IMG/VR virus record: IMGVR_UViG_3300031774_000028
Span: 1-49,899 of that record
Reading direction: 5' to 3' (one strand)
Origin: a virus
DNA: 49,899 nucleotides
The position numbers were made by a program, and so were the translations under genes. Below are positions 23,015 to 48,875 of this stretch, in pieces (positions within the stretch are counted from its first letter, which is position 1; each line of letters opens with the position of its first letter). The notes beneath the pieces were generated by a model. The model worked only from the letters and a program-made list of their open reading frames with translations, was not told the origin of the DNA and made no database searches.

Positions 23015-23018
23015 TCTT

Positions 23019-23046
23019 AATGGCCGTGTGTAAAAGCACGGTCATT
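23019..23046 (+). terminator. Hairpin after the first plus-arm gene, no T tract
   Basis: AATGGCCGTG and CACGGTCATT form a 10-bp stem with one G-T pair and an 8-base loop, starting four bases past the stop at 23014. It is followed by ATAATAACC, not by a T run, so it could be an RNA-stabilising or processing hairpin rather than a classic terminator. Confidence 0.45.
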
Positions 23047-23126
23047 ATAATAACCATTGTTACAATTCCTATGTTACATTAACCAATTCTTTACCTCTAT
23101 TTCTGCTCATCTTCCAATATCAACCT

Positions 23127-23142
23127 CTGCTCCCCAACTAAT
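23127..23142 (+). repeat. Direct repeat copy 2, CTGCTCCCCAACTAAT
   Basis: This matches 22607-22622 at 15 of 16 positions in the same orientation, 520 bp away, with the first plus-arm gene between the copies. It lies in the long non-coding region. Confidence 0.5.
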
Positions 23143-23397
23143 CTCTGCATCTTACTAATAATTAGTAATTAGTTATGTAAAAATTATTTATTTGGGTGTT
23201 GCACAATGAAGATGACATCATATAAGCCATATAATATACCTTTAAGGCCATTAAAATAATAACTGGACCCTATATATATAAATATAGCTAACAATACTAC
23301 AAGAGTAACAATTACACTCAACAATATAACATGAGTAGTTGTTGTCTCTTCCTCTATAGGAATAGTATCATATTACCCGCAATATTAAAATCAAAAG

Positions 23398-23472
23398 CTT
23401 AGAGCAATGAGTCACGCAATACCACTGACTATTCTGTAATAGTGTCAGCCAATAATGGATAAGCACTCTAAG
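23398..23472 (+). ncRNA. Candidate structured leader RNA or attenuator
   Basis: An outer stem CTTAGAG (23398-23404) / CTCTAAG (23466-23472) encloses an inner hairpin CTG-ACTATT-CTGT-AATAGT-GT-CAG (23425-23448), whose central 6-bp stem with tetraloop is perfect. The outer stem is followed by TTATTTTT. It lies 28 bp before the start at 23501, so it could be an attenuator, a processed small RNA, or a 5' leader fold. This is drawn by eye only. Confidence 0.35.
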
Positions 23473-23500
23473 TTATTTTTAACCACTAACATTAAATCAA

Positions 23501-30997: not shown

Positions 30998-31009
30998 TTA
31001 TTTAACTAT
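30994..31009. terminator. Palindrome at convergent gene ends
   Basis: ATAGTTA-TT-TAACTAT is a perfect inverted repeat that covers both stop codons (TAG of the plus gene, TAA of the minus gene). T-rich sequence follows on the plus side. It could act as a weak bidirectional terminator; AT-only pairs make it unstable. Confidence 0.35.
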
Positions 31010-31438
31010 TTTCATCTTACTGTTAATCTCTTTGATTTTATCTGCTGTAGATTTACCTGCTGTAACTAAATCAGCAAGATCTTTTAGATCATCTTTGGTA
31101 GCAGTAGTCTCAGTTAAAAGTTCAAGACCTTGTTCTTTTGCTAAAAATCTTAGAAGTTGAAGTAAAGAAAACAATGTATAAATATTAGATTCATTTATAT
31201 CAAGTTTAATATTTTCTCTTGTTTCATCAGAGATTTCTTGTCCATCTTCTAATTGCATTATAGTACCAAACTTTTTAAATAGTTTAGGTAGTCCTGCTGG
31301 ATTTGGATAGTCTGTTACCATGTCAGTTAAGATTCTAGAAATACCGGAAATATATGCAGTTGATACAGTAATACCTGTTATAACTTTTGAAAAGTCATAA
31401 GTAACAGTTGATTCTAAATTTTGATTTTCTTCAGACAT
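30998..31438 (-). CDS. Lone minus-strand gene in the replication arm
   Basis: This 146-residue protein is counted from MSEENQNLESTVTYDFSKVI at 31438; a longer frame from 31468 lacks leader support. It is helical and acidic, with FSLLQLLRFLAKEQGLELLT and LKDLADLVTAGKSTADKIKE. It is the only gene against the direction of its arm, with a TATATTTG box 18-25 bp upstream and convergent end on the left. Independent transcription suggests a gene acquired or regulated separately, for example expressed late or at low level. It could be a virion-associated or regulatory protein; no family was recognised. Confidence 0.6.
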   Translation of the reverse strand: MSEENQNLESTVTYDFSKVITGITVSTAYISGISRILTDMVTDYPNPAGLPKLFKKFGTIMQLEDGQEISDETRENIKLDINESNIYTLFSLLQLLRFLAKEQGLELLTETTATKDDLKDLADLVTAGKSTADKIKEINSKMKIVK

Positions 31439-31455
31439 AATAAAAGATTTATATA

Positions 31456-31463
31456 CAAATATA
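31456..31463 (-). promoter_or_regulatory. Promoter-like -7 box TATATTTG for the lone gene
   Basis: The minus strand has TATATTTG (fits TAnnTTTG) 18-25 bp upstream of the start at 31438, inside the 44-bp divergent gap with ung. A -33 box is not evident. The surrounding TTTGTATATAAAT also resembles the late element TTTGTATATTA, so the gene might belong to the late class. Confidence 0.4.
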
Positions 31464-31482
31464 CACAAAAATTGAAAGAAAT

Positions 31483-32157
31483 ATGGAAAAAAACCTTATA
31501 ATTCTAAAAGACAATTTAAAAAAAGATATAGAAAGCTCAGGTTGGGCAGATGTATTATTTCCTTACATAGATAGTAAACTTTATGATGATCTAACAGATT
31601 CATTAGTAAGTTTAGTTGAACAGGGTAAAAGATTTACTCCAAAGTTTAAAGACATTTTTAATGCATTTAAGGAATGTAAATATGATGATCTAAAAGTTGT
31701 TATAGTAGGACAAGATCCTTATCCTCAATTAGGATCAGCTGATGGTTTAGCATTTAGTTGTAGTAAAAAAGATAAAGTAGAAAAGTCTTTACAATATATT
31801 AATAAAGCAATTGATACGGATCATACTGATTTAAGATGTTGGGCTAACCAAGGCGTATTATTAATTAATACAGCTCTTACAGTTGAAGTAAATAAAATAG
31901 GGTCTCATTTTTGGAATTGGAAACCTTTTACTGAACATTTGTTTAGTAAGATTAATCAAGACAATAAAGATATTGTTTTCATATTAATGGGTAAAAAAGC
32001 AGAAGCATGGGAAAGACTAATATCTAATCAAAAGATACTTAAGTGTACACATCCTGCATCAGCTGCATATAGAGGTGGTGTTTGGGATTCAAATGACGTG
32101 TTTAACAAGACTAACATAGAACTAAATAAACAAGGTAAAACTTTGATAGACTGGTAA
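31483..32157 (+). CDS. ung: Uracil-DNA glycosylase, family 1
   Basis: This 224-residue protein removes uracil from DNA by cutting the glycosidic bond. The water-activating motif VVIVGQDPYPQLGSADGLAF lies near residues 71-90 with catalytic Asp in GQDPYP, and the minor-groove/catalytic His motif near 188 is KCTHPASAAYRGG (HPSPLS in the usual family). Length and motif spacing fit family 1 UDG. Such an enzyme is conserved in crAss-like phages, where it may protect newly made DNA or act with replication. It lies in front of the DnaA-like and helicase genes. The HPASAAYRG variant is a mild departure from the standard loop. Confidence 0.92.
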   Translation: MEKNLIILKDNLKKDIESSGWADVLFPYIDSKLYDDLTDSLVSLVEQGKRFTPKFKDIFNAFKECKYDDLKVVIVGQDPYPQLGSADGLAFSCSKKDKVEKSLQYINKAIDTDHTDLRCWANQGVLLINTALTVEVNKIGSHFWNWKPFTEHLFSKINQDNKDIVFILMGKKAEAWERLISNQKILKCTHPASAAYRGGVWDSNDVFNKTNIELNKQGKTLIDW

Positions 32158-32194: not shown

Positions 32195-32656
32195 ATGACT
32201 AATAATCAACACAATAGGCTTGATAATGACATAGTTAAGTTCAAAGAAACTATGCTCAGACAGTATGGAATTGAGATCATTGTATTTCAAAAATTACACA
32301 ATGAAGGAGAGTACAGGCCAACACTTCAACAAATACATAAAGCATGTATAACTGTTATGCATACGCTTTATCCTGAACTACAAAATATCAATAAGCTTTC
32401 TGAATTAAACAGAACAAAAGACTTGGTAATGTTCAGAAAGATTTACTGTCATATAGGTCATACTATGAGATATACTTGCCATGCTGTAGGTAAATATATT
32501 AAACGTGATCATTCAAGTGTAGTGCACAGTAGAAACAGCGTTGATGATATGCTTTATATAAAAGATAAAAGTTATATGAATGCATTTGATAAAGTTAATA
32601 AACTAATAAATACTTATGTGGGAATTATTCCAAATAATATACAAAAACAAACTTAG
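32195..32656 (+). CDS. Stand-alone DnaA domain IV-like protein
   Basis: This is a 153-residue protein. The C-terminal half (about 85-140) contains FRKIYCHIGHTMRYTCHAVG and KYIKRDHSSVVHSRNSVDDM, a match to the DNA-binding domain IV of DnaA (signature: G..f..RDHSTV.ha...i). The AAA+ domain of DnaA is absent; the first 80 residues are a different helical part. It probably recognises DnaA-box-like sites in the phage or host genome, to start or block replication. It stands before a possible loader and the DnaB-like helicase, with its own host-type promoter. The residues RDHS...H are those that read the DnaA box in the host protein. Confidence 0.78.
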   Translation: MTNNQHNRLDNDIVKFKETMLRQYGIEIIVFQKLHNEGEYRPTLQQIHKACITVMHTLYPELQNINKLSELNRTKDLVMFRKIYCHIGHTMRYTCHAVGKYIKRDHSSVVHSRNSVDDMLYIKDKSYMNAFDKVNKLINTYVGIIPNNIQKQT

Positions 32657-33206
32657 TCCAAATCAGGCAGCTATATTATTTGGTATGAAACTAAAGATAG
32701 CTTTACCTAAGATTTCAGAAGATGACAAAAAAGCATTAGTTGATAATGGATATGTTACATTTGATAATGAATCATATAAATTAACAGCAGATGCAAAAGT
32801 CTTTATAGCACACTTAGATAATTATTTTATAAAAGCAAAAAAGAAAACAAACATCCAACTTATGGGTAAAGACTTTGCTGATAAAATAAATACCTATAGG
32901 GAAATATTTCCAAATCAAAGATTGCCTAGTGGTAAACCTGCAAGAGTCAACGTAAAAATGTTATCAAGTTCTTTTAGATGGTTGTTTGAGACATATGATT
33001 ATACATGGGATCAAGTATTTGAAGCTACAAGAATGTATGTGAATGAGTACAGAGATGCAGAATATATGTATATGCAGACAAGTCAATATTTTATATGTAA
33101 GCAAGACAAACATAAAGTTAAGTCTTCTACATTAGCTGATTATTGTGATATGATCAGAGATGGTATAGACACAGAACAACAAACATTTAAAGAAAAAGTA
33201 GTATGA
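32616..33206 (+). CDS. Replication protein, possible helicase loader
   Basis: This is a 196-residue protein. The N-terminal 70 residues look like a winged helix (LSPNQAAILFGMKLKIALPK, then ALVDNGYVTFDNESYKLTAD). The C-terminal part (RVNVKMLSSSFRWLFETYDY, VNEYRDAEYMYMQTSQYFIC) is helical and conserved-looking. It overlaps the DnaA-like gene by 41 bp, and the following small gene starts at its stop, just before the DnaB-like helicase. The position between an origin-binding protein and the helicase suggests a helicase loader or primosome factor; this is inference from context only, since no AAA+ site is present. Confidence 0.5.
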   Translation: MWELFQIIYKNKLSPNQAAILFGMKLKIALPKISEDDKKALVDNGYVTFDNESYKLTADAKVFIAHLDNYFIKAKKKTNIQLMGKDFADKINTYREIFPNQRLPSGKPARVNVKMLSSSFRWLFETYDYTWDQVFEATRMYVNEYRDAEYMYMQTSQYFICKQDKHKVKSSTLADYCDMIRDGIDTEQQTFKEKVV

Positions 33207-33361
33207 CAGTAGAAGAACAAGCAGAAGTATTAAATAAATTAAACCTTGTACTTGAAGATTTTCAAATGCTAAGAGATGGTGAATGGGAACCAGACACTAA
33301 ATCATGTAATTCAAGCATAGATAATGTAACAAGTATTATATATACAATAGAGAATGGCTAA
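33203..33361 (+). CDS. 52-aa acidic protein before the helicase gene
   Basis: The frame encodes MTVEEQAEVLNKLNLVLEDF, then QMLRDGEWEPDTKSCNSSID and NVTSIIYTIENG. It starts at the preceding stop (ATGA) and overlaps the helicase start by 8 bp, so it sits in a continuous chain of coupled genes. It is acidic and helical at the start. The function is unknown; it may assist helicase loading or be a small partner protein. Confidence 0.55.
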   Translation: MTVEEQAEVLNKLNLVLEDFQMLRDGEWEPDTKSCNSSIDNVTSIIYTIENG

Positions 33362-34310
33362 ATCAACAGAAGGATGGGTGGGGCAATATTCCGCATTCAA
33401 TGAAGCATTAAAATACATGCAAGGTAGACAAAATGGGACTGAAAAGTCTATATATACACCGTGGCCTAAATTTAATGATGCTGCTACTGATGGTTTAGAA
33501 TGGAATACTCTAACTGTAATTGGTGGTAGACCTGGTTCAGGTAAAACACTTATTAAAGATCAGATTATAAGAGAATCTTTTGCATTAAATCCAGATGATG
33601 ATTTTAGAGTATTAGAATTTCAGTTTGAGATGGTTGGTAGAACATCAGCTATTAGAGAGTTTAGTTCTATTACTGGTAAAACATATAAAGAATTATGTAG
33701 TGCTGGTAGTATACTTACTTCTGATGTATTGAATACATGTCATCAGTATGCTAAGGAAAGAGTTAAGCATCCGGTAGATATAGTTTCAACACCTATGACT
33801 GTAAATCAAATGCGTGAGCAAATTGATATGTACATGAACAAGCATAAAGGTAAAAAAACTATTATAACATTGGATCATACAATGCTTGTAAAGAGAGCAC
33901 CTTATCAGAATAACACATTAGATATGTTATTTGAATTAGGTGAGTTTTTTACACAATGTAAGAGAGATTATCCATGTTTGTTTATTTCACTATCACAACT
34001 TAATAGAAATATTGATAATCCAGATAGAGCAATAGATGGTAAGTATGGTAATTATATTCTTGAGTCAGATATATTTGGTTCAGATGCTATGTTACAACAT
34101 GCAGATATGCTTATTGGTATAAACCGTCCTGCTAAACAAAAGATTAGGTTCTATGGGCCAGATAGATATATTATAGAAAATGATAGAACTTTGGTATTAC
34201 ACTTTTTGAAAGCAAGAAATGGTGATGCAAGAATGAGTTTCTTTAAAGCAAAGTTTGAACAAATGCAGATTGAAGAAATGCAAACCCCTGGTCAACAAGA
34301 ACGCAGATAA
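33354..34310 (+). CDS. DnaB-like replicative helicase ATPase
   Basis: This 318-residue RecA-fold ATPase has a Walker A at residues 57-65 (GGRPGSGKT), Walker B at about 170 (KTIITLDHTMLV), and a motif 3-like SLSQLNRN at about 212. A DnaB-type C-terminal part follows with DAMLQHADMLIGINRPAK. It lacks the N-terminal DnaB domain and most of the primase-linker region. It probably unwinds the phage replication fork with the downstream primase. It ends with a Gln-rich tail. It lies after a chain of overlapping genes with the DnaA-like protein, which supports a role at the origin. Confidence 0.82.
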   Translation: MAKSTEGWVGQYSAFNEALKYMQGRQNGTEKSIYTPWPKFNDAATDGLEWNTLTVIGGRPGSGKTLIKDQIIRESFALNPDDDFRVLEFQFEMVGRTSAIREFSSITGKTYKELCSAGSILTSDVLNTCHQYAKERVKHPVDIVSTPMTVNQMREQIDMYMNKHKGKKTIITLDHTMLVKRAPYQNNTLDMLFELGEFFTQCKRDYPCLFISLSQLNRNIDNPDRAIDGKYGNYILESDIFGSDAMLQHADMLIGINRPAKQKIRFYGPDRYIIENDRTLVLHFLKARNGDARMSFFKAKFEQMQIEEMQTPGQQERR

Positions 34311-44984: not shown

Positions 44985-45072
44985 AACTGTAAGAAGTGCA
45001 GCTAAAGCTTTAGGTATTAATGAAAGAACTCTACATACATTTAAAGATAAACTTAAAGAAGAAAAAGAATGA
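44926..45072 (+). CDS. 48-aa Fis-type HTH protein
   Basis: The frame encodes METLLQMKERLMTLALKKHK, then TVRSAAKALGINERTLHTFK and DKLKEEKE. This matches the C-terminal DNA-binding part of Fis/NtrC proteins (L..AL....n...AA..LGI..rTL..k). It overlaps the upstream gene by 59 bp and the polymerase start by four bases (ATGA). It has no other domain, so it would be a minimal DNA-binding peptide, possibly acting as a dimer in regulating or organising DNA. Good Fis pattern despite the small size. Confidence 0.62.
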   Translation: METLLQMKERLMTLALKKHKTVRSAAKALGINERTLHTFKDKLKEEKE

Positions 45073-47075
45073 AACATTGGGTAATGGATTATGAAACACT
45101 TTATGATTGTTTTACTGGTGTTTTTGAAAATTATAAAACTACAGAGACTAAGATATTTGTAATATCACGGTTAAGAAATGATCAGACAGAATTTATAAAC
45201 TTTCTAGAAGACAACATCACAAACAAAGAGTGGCATATATCCTATAATGGATTAGCATTTGATGCGCAAGTAACTCACTATATATTAGATAATGTTAGTA
45301 AATGGAAAGATGAAGAAGGTTTAGGTCTTGATGGTCATCTAGTTGCTAATATTATTTATAAGTATGCACAGAGATGTATACAGAAATCAAACAATAAAGA
45401 GTTTAGTGATTATCCACAATGGAAGATGAGAATAGGTCAAATAGATTTATTTAAAATGCACCATTGGGATAACCCGGCTAAACGTTCTAGTCTTAAATGG
45501 ATTCAGTATAGTATGGATTGGCAGAATATATTAGATATGCCTATTCATCATGAAACTGAAATCAGAACTCAAAAAGATCTAGACACTATACTTGAATACT
45601 GCATTAATGATGTTAAGTCTACAAAAGAAATCTATAACAGATCAAGATCTCAAGTAGCTTTAAGAAAAGAATTGACAAGTACATACAATATTAACATGTT
45701 TAGTGCCTCAGAGCCTAGGATTAGTAAAGAGATATTTGGATATTATTTATCTAGAAACTTAAATATTCCTAAAAGAGATCTCAAACAGATGAGAACTTAT
45801 AGGGATACAATTAAGATTAAGGATATTATATTACCATACATTTCTTTCTCATCTCAAGAGTTTAAGGTATTGTTTGATAGGTTTGCTTCATTAGAAGTTA
45901 ACGCAGGTAGTCTTAAGGGTAGTTTTAAATACAACATAAACTATAAGGGTGTCAATACACACTTTGGTTTAGGTGGTGTTCATGGTGCTATAAAGAAAGG
46001 TGTTTATGAACCGGATGATGACATGATGATTATGTCTTCTGATGTAACATCTTTTTATCCTAATCTGGCTATTAAAAACAAGTGGTCTCCGGGTCATTTC
46101 CCTAAAGAAGAATTCTGTAATCAATATGAGTGGTTCTTTGAAGAGCGTAAGAAGATTCCTAAGAGCAATCCAATGAACTATGTATATAAGATTATACTTA
46201 ATTCTACTTTTGGTCTTAGCAATGATGAAAATAGCTTCTTTTATGATCCTGAGTTATGTATGAGAATAACAATCAATGGTCAACTATCCCTAATGATGCT
46301 TTATGAGCAAATTATGGAGCGTATACCGGGTGCTATTGCTTTATTACAAAACACAGATGGTGTAGAAACTATAATACCAAAGGCATTTTATGATGAGTAC
46401 ATGCTTATATGTGAAGAATGGGAAAAGAAAACCAATCTTAATTTAGAGCATGATGAATATCAGAAGATGGTTATTGGTGATGTTAACAACTACATTGGTA
46501 TTAATAAGTGGGTTGATGTAGATATATCTACTTGGAGAAAACTAAAAACTGACAATCCTCATTACTTATTTAAAGTAGAGAATGATAAGTTTAGTTTTGC
46601 CCCGGTAAAACTTAAGGGTAGATTTGATTTTCATAACCTGCAGTTGCACAAGAATAAATCTAAACTTGTTATACCAAAGGCAATCTATCATTACTTTGTT
46701 CATGATATGTTACCTGAAGATTATATTGATACAAATAAAAACATATTAGATTATTGTATTGGTGGAAAATCAAAAGGTGATTGGCAACAGGTTGCTAGAC
46801 AAATAAAGAATGGTATATTTGATGAAGAAAAATTACAGAAGATTAATAGATATTTTATATCTAAATCCGGTGTAAAGATTCTTAAAGTTAACAAGAAAGA
46901 TAAAAGAGAGATACAGTTAGAAGCTGGCAAATGGTTGCAGTCAATATTTAATGATATGCAATTAGAACCTAAGTGGGAAAACTATGATATTGATAAAAAA
47001 TATTATCTTGAAGCTATAGAGCAAGAGATTAATAATATTATTGATGTTGCTCCAAATCAATTAACACTATTCTAA
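45069..47075 (+). CDS. Family B DNA polymerase with 3'-5' exonuclease
   Basis: This is a 668-residue protein. Exonuclease motifs are ExoI at 7-10 (DYET), ExoII near 61 (SYNGLAFDAQ) and ExoIII near 177 (YCINDVKST). Polymerase motif A is near 324 (SSDVTSFYPNLAI), motif B near 374 (YKIILNSTFGLS), and motif C near 427 (LLQNTDGVETI), where the usual DTDS is NTDG and the catalytic Asp is kept. The protein is short for family B, close to other crAss-like phage enzymes. It copies the phage genome together with the helicase, primase and SSB. PhoH follows with a one-base stop/start overlap (TAATG). Confidence 0.87.
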   Translation: MKHWVMDYETLYDCFTGVFENYKTTETKIFVISRLRNDQTEFINFLEDNITNKEWHISYNGLAFDAQVTHYILDNVSKWKDEEGLGLDGHLVANIIYKYAQRCIQKSNNKEFSDYPQWKMRIGQIDLFKMHHWDNPAKRSSLKWIQYSMDWQNILDMPIHHETEIRTQKDLDTILEYCINDVKSTKEIYNRSRSQVALRKELTSTYNINMFSASEPRISKEIFGYYLSRNLNIPKRDLKQMRTYRDTIKIKDIILPYISFSSQEFKVLFDRFASLEVNAGSLKGSFKYNINYKGVNTHFGLGGVHGAIKKGVYEPDDDMMIMSSDVTSFYPNLAIKNKWSPGHFPKEEFCNQYEWFFEERKKIPKSNPMNYVYKIILNSTFGLSNDENSFFYDPELCMRITINGQLSLMMLYEQIMERIPGAIALLQNTDGVETIIPKAFYDEYMLICEEWEKKTNLNLEHDEYQKMVIGDVNNYIGINKWVDVDISTWRKLKTDNPHYLFKVENDKFSFAPVKLKGRFDFHNLQLHKNKSKLVIPKAIYHYFVHDMLPEDYIDTNKNILDYCIGGKSKGDWQQVARQIKNGIFDEEKLQKINRYFISKSGVKILKVNKKDKREIQLEAGKWLQSIFNDMQLEPKWENYDIDKKYYLEAIEQEINNIIDVAPNQLTLF

Positions 47076-47742: not shown

Positions 47743-48045
47743 ATGGATTATTTTGAATTAGAATGCGCAGTAGAAAACTGGGCTATGGAAAAAGGTATTC
47801 TTGCTAAAGCTACACCAATGGCCCAAGCACTGAAAACATTAGAAGAAACAACTGAGCTTTGCACGGCCATTAATGTTAAAGACCGTGAAGAGATCATTGA
47901 TGCTATGGGTGATATTATGGTTACCTTGATTATTCAAGCTAAGATGCAAAACATTAGTTTAGAAAAATGTTTAGAAAGTGCTTACAATGTAATTTCACAA
48001 CGTACAGGTAGGATGGTTAATGGTCAATTTGTTAAAGACCGTTGA
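47743..48045 (+). CDS. MazG-like nucleotide pyrophosphohydrolase
   Basis: This is a 100-residue protein. ALKTLEETTELCTAINVKDR and EEIIDAMGDIMVTLIIQAKM give the ExxE...ExxD (E-E-x-x-E ... D-x-x-G-D) metal-binding pattern of MazG-type all-alpha NTP pyrophosphatases. Phage forms may hydrolyse (p)ppGpp or aberrant dNTPs. Size agrees with a single MazG domain. It follows phoH by 5 bp and the next gene begins within its stop. Confidence 0.78.
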   Translation: MDYFELECAVENWAMEKGILAKATPMAQALKTLEETTELCTAINVKDREEIIDAMGDIMVTLIIQAKMQNISLEKCLESAYNVISQRTGRMVNGQFVKDR

Positions 48046-48875
48046 TTAAAGTTCAGAAAACCAAAACTTTAATTACCAAAACAAATAATAATAGTAGTAA
48101 TTGCATAGCTCCAAACATCATATATGGGTGTTTTGGAGGCTGTGTAGATACATATTGTTATATGTCTAGATATAATGGTAAAAGAGTTTTTGTTAACAAG
48201 AACGTTGATGAGATTTATGAGTCTGTTGTTGAATGGGAAAAGGAATTTACTAAAGTCCCTGATCAACAAGACCCTATATATACTATGGTAGATGTTGCCT
48301 GCAATTCAGATTTAGTACTGATGCAGAAACACATGCCTGAACCTTTGATTGATTATCTTAAGAGGTTTGATAATCACCCACAACTTAATAGTACTATGGC
48401 CACTAAGTATCCAGGGTTGTTAAAGTTAGATGTAAATCACTTTAATAAACCACCACGGGTACGTGTAAGTCTTATGCCTCAGAAGTATTCTAATATATTA
48501 GAACCTAAGATGCAAAAGATAGTAAGCCGTATAGCTGATATTAATAGGCTTAAGAAATTGGGCTGGGAAGTACATTTAAATTATAGCCCTTTAATTTTTT
48601 ACCCCGGTTGGAAAGAAGAGTATAATAATCTTTTTTCTATGGTAAAAGATGTAGCAGGTGAAAATAAATGTGAAGTTATTGCTTTAACTAATCATGTTAA
48701 GCAAATGATTAAAACAACACCAGAAGCAAGAGAGTTGATGAGAAGATCTTATGAAATTAAGAATCAATCAGGAGTTATGAGATATCCTTTAGAACATAAA
48801 GGAAGGTTGTTATCTGAATTTAAAGAAATTTATTCAAAGTATTTTTCTATAAAAACAATCAGATATATATTTTAA
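48042..48875 (+). CDS. Radical-SAM / spore photoproduct lyase-like protein
   Basis: This is a 277-residue protein with a TTG start at 48042 overlapping the MazG stop; no ATG exists before residue 41, so an alternative start is needed. The Cys cluster is GCFGGCVDTYCYM at residues 29-41 (C30, C34, C39), spaced C-x3-C-x4-C rather than the usual C-x3-C-x2-C of radical-SAM enzymes. VDVACNSDLVLM (about 87) recalls the SPL family 'SCNSD' motif, and RVRVSLMPQKYSNILEPKMQ is also typical of it. It may repair or modify nucleic acid. The iron-sulfur site would hold SAM; the substrate is unknown. Confidence 0.65.
   Translation: MIKVQKTKTLITKTNNNSSNCIAPNIIYGCFGGCVDTYCYMSRYNGKRVFVNKNVDEIYESVVEWEKEFTKVPDQQDPIYTMVDVACNSDLVLMQKHMPEPLIDYLKRFDNHPQLNSTMATKYPGLLKLDVNHFNKPPRVRVSLMPQKYSNILEPKMQKIVSRIADINRLKKLGWEVHLNYSPLIFYPGWKEEYNNLFSMVKDVAGENKCEVIALTNHVKQMIKTTPEARELMRRSYEIKNQSGVMRYPLEHKGRLLSEFKEIYSKYFSIKTIRYIF

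Follow-up and report, generated by a model that had tools for sequence, protein, structure and literature searches.

Free-standing DNA-binding domains of the DnaA type are already annotated in many phages, where they stand as scattered database entries named as if they were replication initiators. They include gp026 (PF08299) of Flavobacterium phage vB_FspS_tooticki6-1, an annotated free-standing DnaA C-terminal protein in MW202828, and dozens of BFVD entries from uncultured Caudovirales phages labelled 'Chromosomal replication initiator, DnaA C-terminal'; the literature searched describes no function for such a domain in any phage. In Rhodobacter capsulatus, the transcription activator GafA, of an element of phage origin, uses a DnaA-like domain, and in Hyphomicrobiales a separate small DnaA-like gene precedes the gafA homologues (PMC9638019). 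Here we describe DnaA4, a protein of 153 amino acids that adds a member to this kind. It is encoded in the IMG/VR virus record IMGVR_UViG_3300031774_000028, a partial record whose whole 49,899-base stretch is called the window below, and which is best described, by its best matches rather than by formal classification, as coming from a marine Crassvirales-like phage. The same helicase module is found among relatives with DnaA4, without it, and with what looks like a replacement, a natural comparison in which the role of the domain can be compared across genomes.

A free-standing DnaA domain IV

Profile searches and structure prediction together identify DnaA4 as a free-standing DnaA domain IV. 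Against the Pfam family Bac_DnaA_C (PF08299) the protein itself scores 26.6 bits (E = 6.1e-6), below the curated cut-off of 31.5, while all of the aligned DnaA4 family members (23 of 23) match the profile, with a best E of 3.1e-9, and the member in the record of locus L031 exceeds the cut-off at 35.1 bits. Structure prediction from the alignment of the 23 sequences gave a model whose predicted local distance difference test score (pLDDT) is 91-97 over residues 41-140. Residues 42-143 of the model superimpose on the DNA-bound domain IV of Mycobacterium tuberculosis DnaA (3pvp; Z 15.2, 1.7 Å over 95 residues) and, almost as closely, on that of Escherichia coli DnaA (1j1v; Z 14.5, 1.6 Å over 91 residues), and the first match to a fold other than DnaA comes at Z 6.0. 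No AAA+ domain III was found in DnaA4: its 153 residues match Bac_DnaA_C only, and the model consists of domain IV and a short extension. A second, sigma-like DNA-binding domain of the GafA type gave no match either, and there is no room for one outside domain IV. The first-pass annotation of this DNA had read a DnaA domain IV signature without the AAA+ part, and had named failure of a hidden Markov model comparison to recover the domain as one result that would count against it; the comparison was run, and domain IV was recovered by the Pfam profile, by the family matches and in the predicted fold.

Set beside whole DnaA, as known from the E. coli and M. tuberculosis structures, DnaA4 has the whole domain fold in common, together with the helix-turn-helix and basic-loop residues R399 and H434 (E. 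coli numbering), but is without domains I-III, with their AAA+ ATPase, oligomerisation and helicase-loading functions. The free-standing phage proteins are closer in architecture. The tooticki6-1 protein has the same isolated domain IV fold (Foldseek 5e-4), as do the BFVD entries, and the top E of this fold search was 3.0e-5; at ~100-190 amino acids these proteins are similar in size to DnaA4, but only ~14-27% identical to it. A tblastn search with DnaA4 found no match in named phages, and only the fold search reached the other phage DnaA_C proteins. The gene for gp026 of tooticki6-1 comes, likewise, from an early region. It does not adjoin a helicase gene, whereas DnaA4 stands directly before the helicase partner. 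GafA resembles DnaA4 in carrying, apart from any DnaA, a DNA-binding domain similar to domain IV, but it is longer, has two DNA-binding domains and acts as a transcription activator, whereas DnaA4 is a one-domain protein encoded within a replication run.

DNA-reading residues and the search for a target

In E. coli DnaA, base-specific contacts are made by R399, P423, D433, H434, T435 and H439 (PMC7561715), and the R399A and T435M variants are defective in box binding (PMC5742627). The equivalents of R399 and H434 are invariant throughout the DnaA4 family (23/23). In the window, DnaA4 also keeps D433 and H439, with T435 replaced by serine and P423 by histidine; most of its relatives have asparagine at 433, alanine at 435 and asparagine at 439. 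Because the arginine and histidine are invariant while positions 433, 435 and 439 have changed, DnaA4 probably binds DNA, and much of the family has probably come to recognise a different sequence.

The standard DnaA box TTATNCACA occurs three times in the window, at scattered sites, against an expectation of about five. No enrichment or cluster of it was seen in six relatives, four with DnaA4 and two without, so that the DnaA-box clusters which the earlier annotation had suggested looking for are absent, for the standard box, from the window, itself a partial record, and from these relatives. Avoidance of the box was also considered: a Markov expectation hinted at depletion, but comparison with permuted motifs showed none that was significant. 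The GC skew switches at ~22.5-25 kb of the window, and a search of the surrounding sequence for iterons or tandem repeats was negative. A 486-base non-coding stretch at this point (23015-23500), the largest internal gap in the window, is a candidate for an origin or a regulatory region and contains no DnaA boxes.

The winged-helix protein and the helicase

The 196-amino-acid protein encoded after DnaA4 has an N-terminal, MarR-like winged helix (residues 1-76; Z ~10) and a helical C-terminal part, and neither Pfam nor PHROG gave an ATPase match that would mark it as an AAA+ loader of the DnaC/DnaI type. It aligns with the crAss001 Gp86 family (hhalign 98.5%, E = 1.6e-15, 155 columns), whose gene lies directly before the helicase gene across the Steigviridae, the place that the 196-amino-acid gene takes in the window; the Gp86-family gene of Kolpuevirus 'frurule' is annotated 'replisome organizer protein'. 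By this alignment the 196-amino-acid protein is homologous to crAss001 Gp86, a conserved Crassvirales neighbour of the helicase, and the likeness to crAss001 and 'frurule' lies in this gene just before the helicase, not in DnaA4. A tie to the differently annotated 'ScpB-like' winged-helix gene found at the same position in six Suoliviridae genomes is at best tentative, the similarity being weak.

The 318-amino-acid helicase matches Pfam DnaB_C (E = 4.2e-17) and the DnaB-like helicases of PHROG_19 (E = 3.7e-30), with no Pfam match to the DnaB N-terminal domain, and the gut Crassvirales helicases that match it are likewise short (~300-325 amino acids). A helicase without the N-terminal domain and an adjoining winged-helix protein are thus normal Crassvirales parts. 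In describing a winged-helix protein without an ATPase site and a minimal DnaB-like helicase, the first-pass annotation was correct on both counts.

Patchy occurrence of DnaA4 beside a conserved helicase module

Relatives in IMG/VR were collected through the helicase (90-100% identity), and an iterated profile search of their helicase loci found DnaA4 in most, directly between a gene of the UDG superfamily and the 196-amino-acid gene. At several loci the UDG gene is followed directly by the 196-amino-acid gene, and it precedes that gene in every examined relative without DnaA4. Two long records, G010 (107.9 kb) and G012 (118.3 kb, with 127-base direct terminal repeats), yielded on whole-record search only the overprinted tail of DnaA4 described below and no credible Bac_DnaA_C match, and no DnaA_C match was obtained in cr106_1 (Steigviridae) or in six gut Suoliviridae genomes. 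On a tree of the 196-amino-acid protein and the helicase, DnaA4 is found on both deep sides, and the loci without it need at least four changes, of which two are made unavoidable by branches with good support. The simplest reading of this pattern is that DnaA4 is ancestral and has been lost several times; gains are also possible, the root of the tree not being fixed.

Two loci have nothing in the usual slot but encode, 1.8 kb upstream and before the UDG gene, another free-standing DnaA_C protein, of 173 amino acids and with a long C-terminal extension (L049:815-1336 and L054:1592-2113). It looks like a replacement of DnaA4.

The ratio of nonsynonymous to synonymous substitution rates (dN/dS) is 0.23-0.44 for DnaA4, with the lowest counts in the closest pair, 0-0.16 for the 196-amino-acid protein, 0.04-0.07 for UDG and 0.03-0.05 for the helicase. 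DnaA4 is accordingly under purifying selection, weaker than that on its neighbours, evolving ~5-10 times more freely than the 196-amino-acid protein and the helicase. Because it evolves fast and is absent from branches that keep both of these proteins, DnaA4 is best seen, on comparative grounds, as an accessory factor and not as an obligatory initiator for the adjacent helicase.

Possible roles of DnaA4

The role that we tentatively favor is that of an accessory replication protein. DnaA4 would bind a short, phage-specific DNA site, either in place of the standard box or in addition to it; it would help the adjacent winged-helix protein deliver the helicase to the bound site; and delivery by this route may raise or time early replication. 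The link to replication is drawn from its placement between the UDG gene and the 196-amino-acid gene, which it overlaps and which is itself the conserved helicase neighbour, and an obligatory initiator is not proposed because relatives replicate without DnaA4. Several results weigh against this role: the searches turned up neither box enrichment nor clustered boxes nor an array of iterons; where DnaA4 is absent, the genes for the helicase and its winged-helix partner are intact; and fast evolution, with most relatives substituted at D433, T435 and H439, leaves the target site unspecified.

A transcription regulator, using the DnaA fold, as GafA does, on phage or host promoters and encoded, like many phage regulators, in an early or middle operon, is an unlikely but serious contender. 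Rapid divergence and repeated absence are more in keeping with a regulator than with a core factor of replication, but DnaA4 lies inside the replication run beside a helicase partner rather than in a regulatory block, and its model, domain IV with a 41-residue extension, offers no sigma-like or second DNA-binding domain.

We consider it rather improbable that DnaA4 serves in host takeover, occupying host DnaA boxes at oriC or the dnaA promoter and, being without the AAA+ part, blocking or titrating host replication. Genes for host takeover commonly evolve fast and are repeatedly absent. In the window, four of the six base-contacting residues are identical to those of E. coli and one is conservatively replaced (T435S), and, as the phage genome is not enriched in TTATNCACA, canonical boxes, if bound at all, would be those of the host. 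Most relatives, however, have altered D433, T435 and H439, which are needed for contact with the canonical box; the shortfall of boxes in the phage does not reach significance; and the gene is embedded in the replication run.

There is a still slighter chance that DnaA4 is a detached DnaA origin reader acting in trans with the winged-helix partner and the helicase lacking its N-terminal domain, dispensed with in some relatives or replaced by an unrelated DnaA_C protein, as at L049 and L054. The strict form of split initiation, with DnaA4 as the true origin-recognition initiator and the 196-amino-acid protein loading the helicase, draws on gene order and frame overlaps, on the conserved base-contacting residues and on the standing of the 196-amino-acid protein as a conserved helicase neighbour, but is very unlikely given that DnaA4 is missing from sub-branches in which this helicase and this winged-helix protein are both present, from the six gut Suoliviridae genomes and the Steigviridae genome, and that no box or iteron cluster was found. 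Of the simplified initiation system originally proposed from the sequence, the arrangement of domain IV beside a winged-helix protein and a short helicase is retained, while the proposed role of DnaA4 as origin reader for the helicase is made less likely by the same missing box cluster, by fast evolution and by absence from helicase-keeping branches, the genome with terminal repeats among them. In a phage, the label 'DnaA-like' need not imply 'initiator'.

Organization of the gene run

The four overlapping reading frames first noted here are all present (Table 1). DnaA4 does not head the operon, as had been supposed, since the UDG gene precedes it on the same strand and is the first plus-strand gene after a divergent minus-strand gene. 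The block of UDG, DnaA4, winged-helix and helicase genes is kept in dozens of IMG/VR contigs, and because of this conservation and the dN/dS of DnaA4 we take the genes to be real. The 52-amino-acid protein has no family match in Pfam or PHROG.

Table 1. Plus-strand genes around DnaA4 and codons of its DNA-reading residues, in window coordinates
Feature	Coordinates	Strand	Remarks
UDG superfamily gene	31483..32157	+	Pfam UDG, E 6.3e-15; first plus-strand gene of the run, 37 nucleotides upstream of DnaA4
DnaA4, 153 amino acids	32195..32656	+	Residues 42-143, domain IV; residues 1-41, poorly predicted N-terminal extension
R73 codon	32411..32413	+	Minor-groove contact, counterpart of R399 in E. coli DnaA; invariant 23/23
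R104-V109 (RDHSSV) codons	32504..32521	+	Equivalent to E. coli DnaA R432-V437, start of recognition helix; H106 = H434, invariant 23/23
196-amino-acid winged-helix protein	32616..33206	+	Homologue of crAss001 Gp86; overlaps end of DnaA4 by 41 nucleotides
52-amino-acid protein	33203..33361	+	4-nucleotide overlap with 196-amino-acid gene; only in part of the relatives
318-amino-acid DnaB-type helicase	33354..34310	+	RecA-like domain only; 8-nucleotide overlap with 52-amino-acid gene; Walker A GGRPGSGKT

The minus-strand gene upstream of UDG (30998-31468, minus strand) is conserved and, lying immediately ahead of UDG, breaks the block of plus-strand replication genes; it is also present in L049 (1988-2425, minus strand). 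In most relatives that carry DnaA4, the 196-amino-acid gene adjoins the helicase gene or is separated from it only by the 52-amino-acid gene. Extra genes lie between the two at L047 (3127-5450), one of them with a ThyX-like RHRS motif and one metallophosphoesterase-like by eye, and gaps between the 196-amino-acid gene and the helicase gene also occur in L038, L065, L090 and L032.

The 3' end of DnaA4 overprints the start of the 196-amino-acid gene by 28 to more than 100 nucleotides, depending on the lineage, and the length seen in the window is set by a TAG codon in its subclade. Recoding of this TAG was considered, since the DnaA4 frame continues past it in close relatives; because reading through TAG made hardly any difference to coding coverage, and a suppressor tRNA is absent, the codon was treated as a stop. 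The C-terminal tail of DnaA4 (YVGTIPEN...) was likewise considered as a functional peptide, an idea that was dropped. The tail is also seen in relatives without domain IV, and its YVG codons, TATGTGGGA, contain the start of the 196-amino-acid gene, ATGTGGGA (MWE). Overprinting on this start accounts for its conservation, and the tail is therefore uninformative on whether DnaA4 was lost or gained.

Genomic context of the window

The placement of the source genome draws on features typical of Crassvirales, namely its terminase, portal and helicase and the order of its replication genes. Portal and terminase match phage PHROGs, the best named matches of the terminase are crAss phages (~25% identity), and the closest named helicases are those of gut Crassvirales, up to 37% identical. 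A run of helicase, hypothetical, Sak4, hypothetical and primase genes is common to the window and its gut relatives. The DNA polymerase gene of the window (45069-47075) lies ~11 kb downstream of the helicase gene, while in the six gut Suoliviridae genomes it stands directly before the winged-helix gene. At 48042-48875 the window encodes a protein with a match to the spore photoproduct lyase family (Pfam SPL, E = 6.5e-17), an odd find for a phage whose host is presumably non-sporulating.
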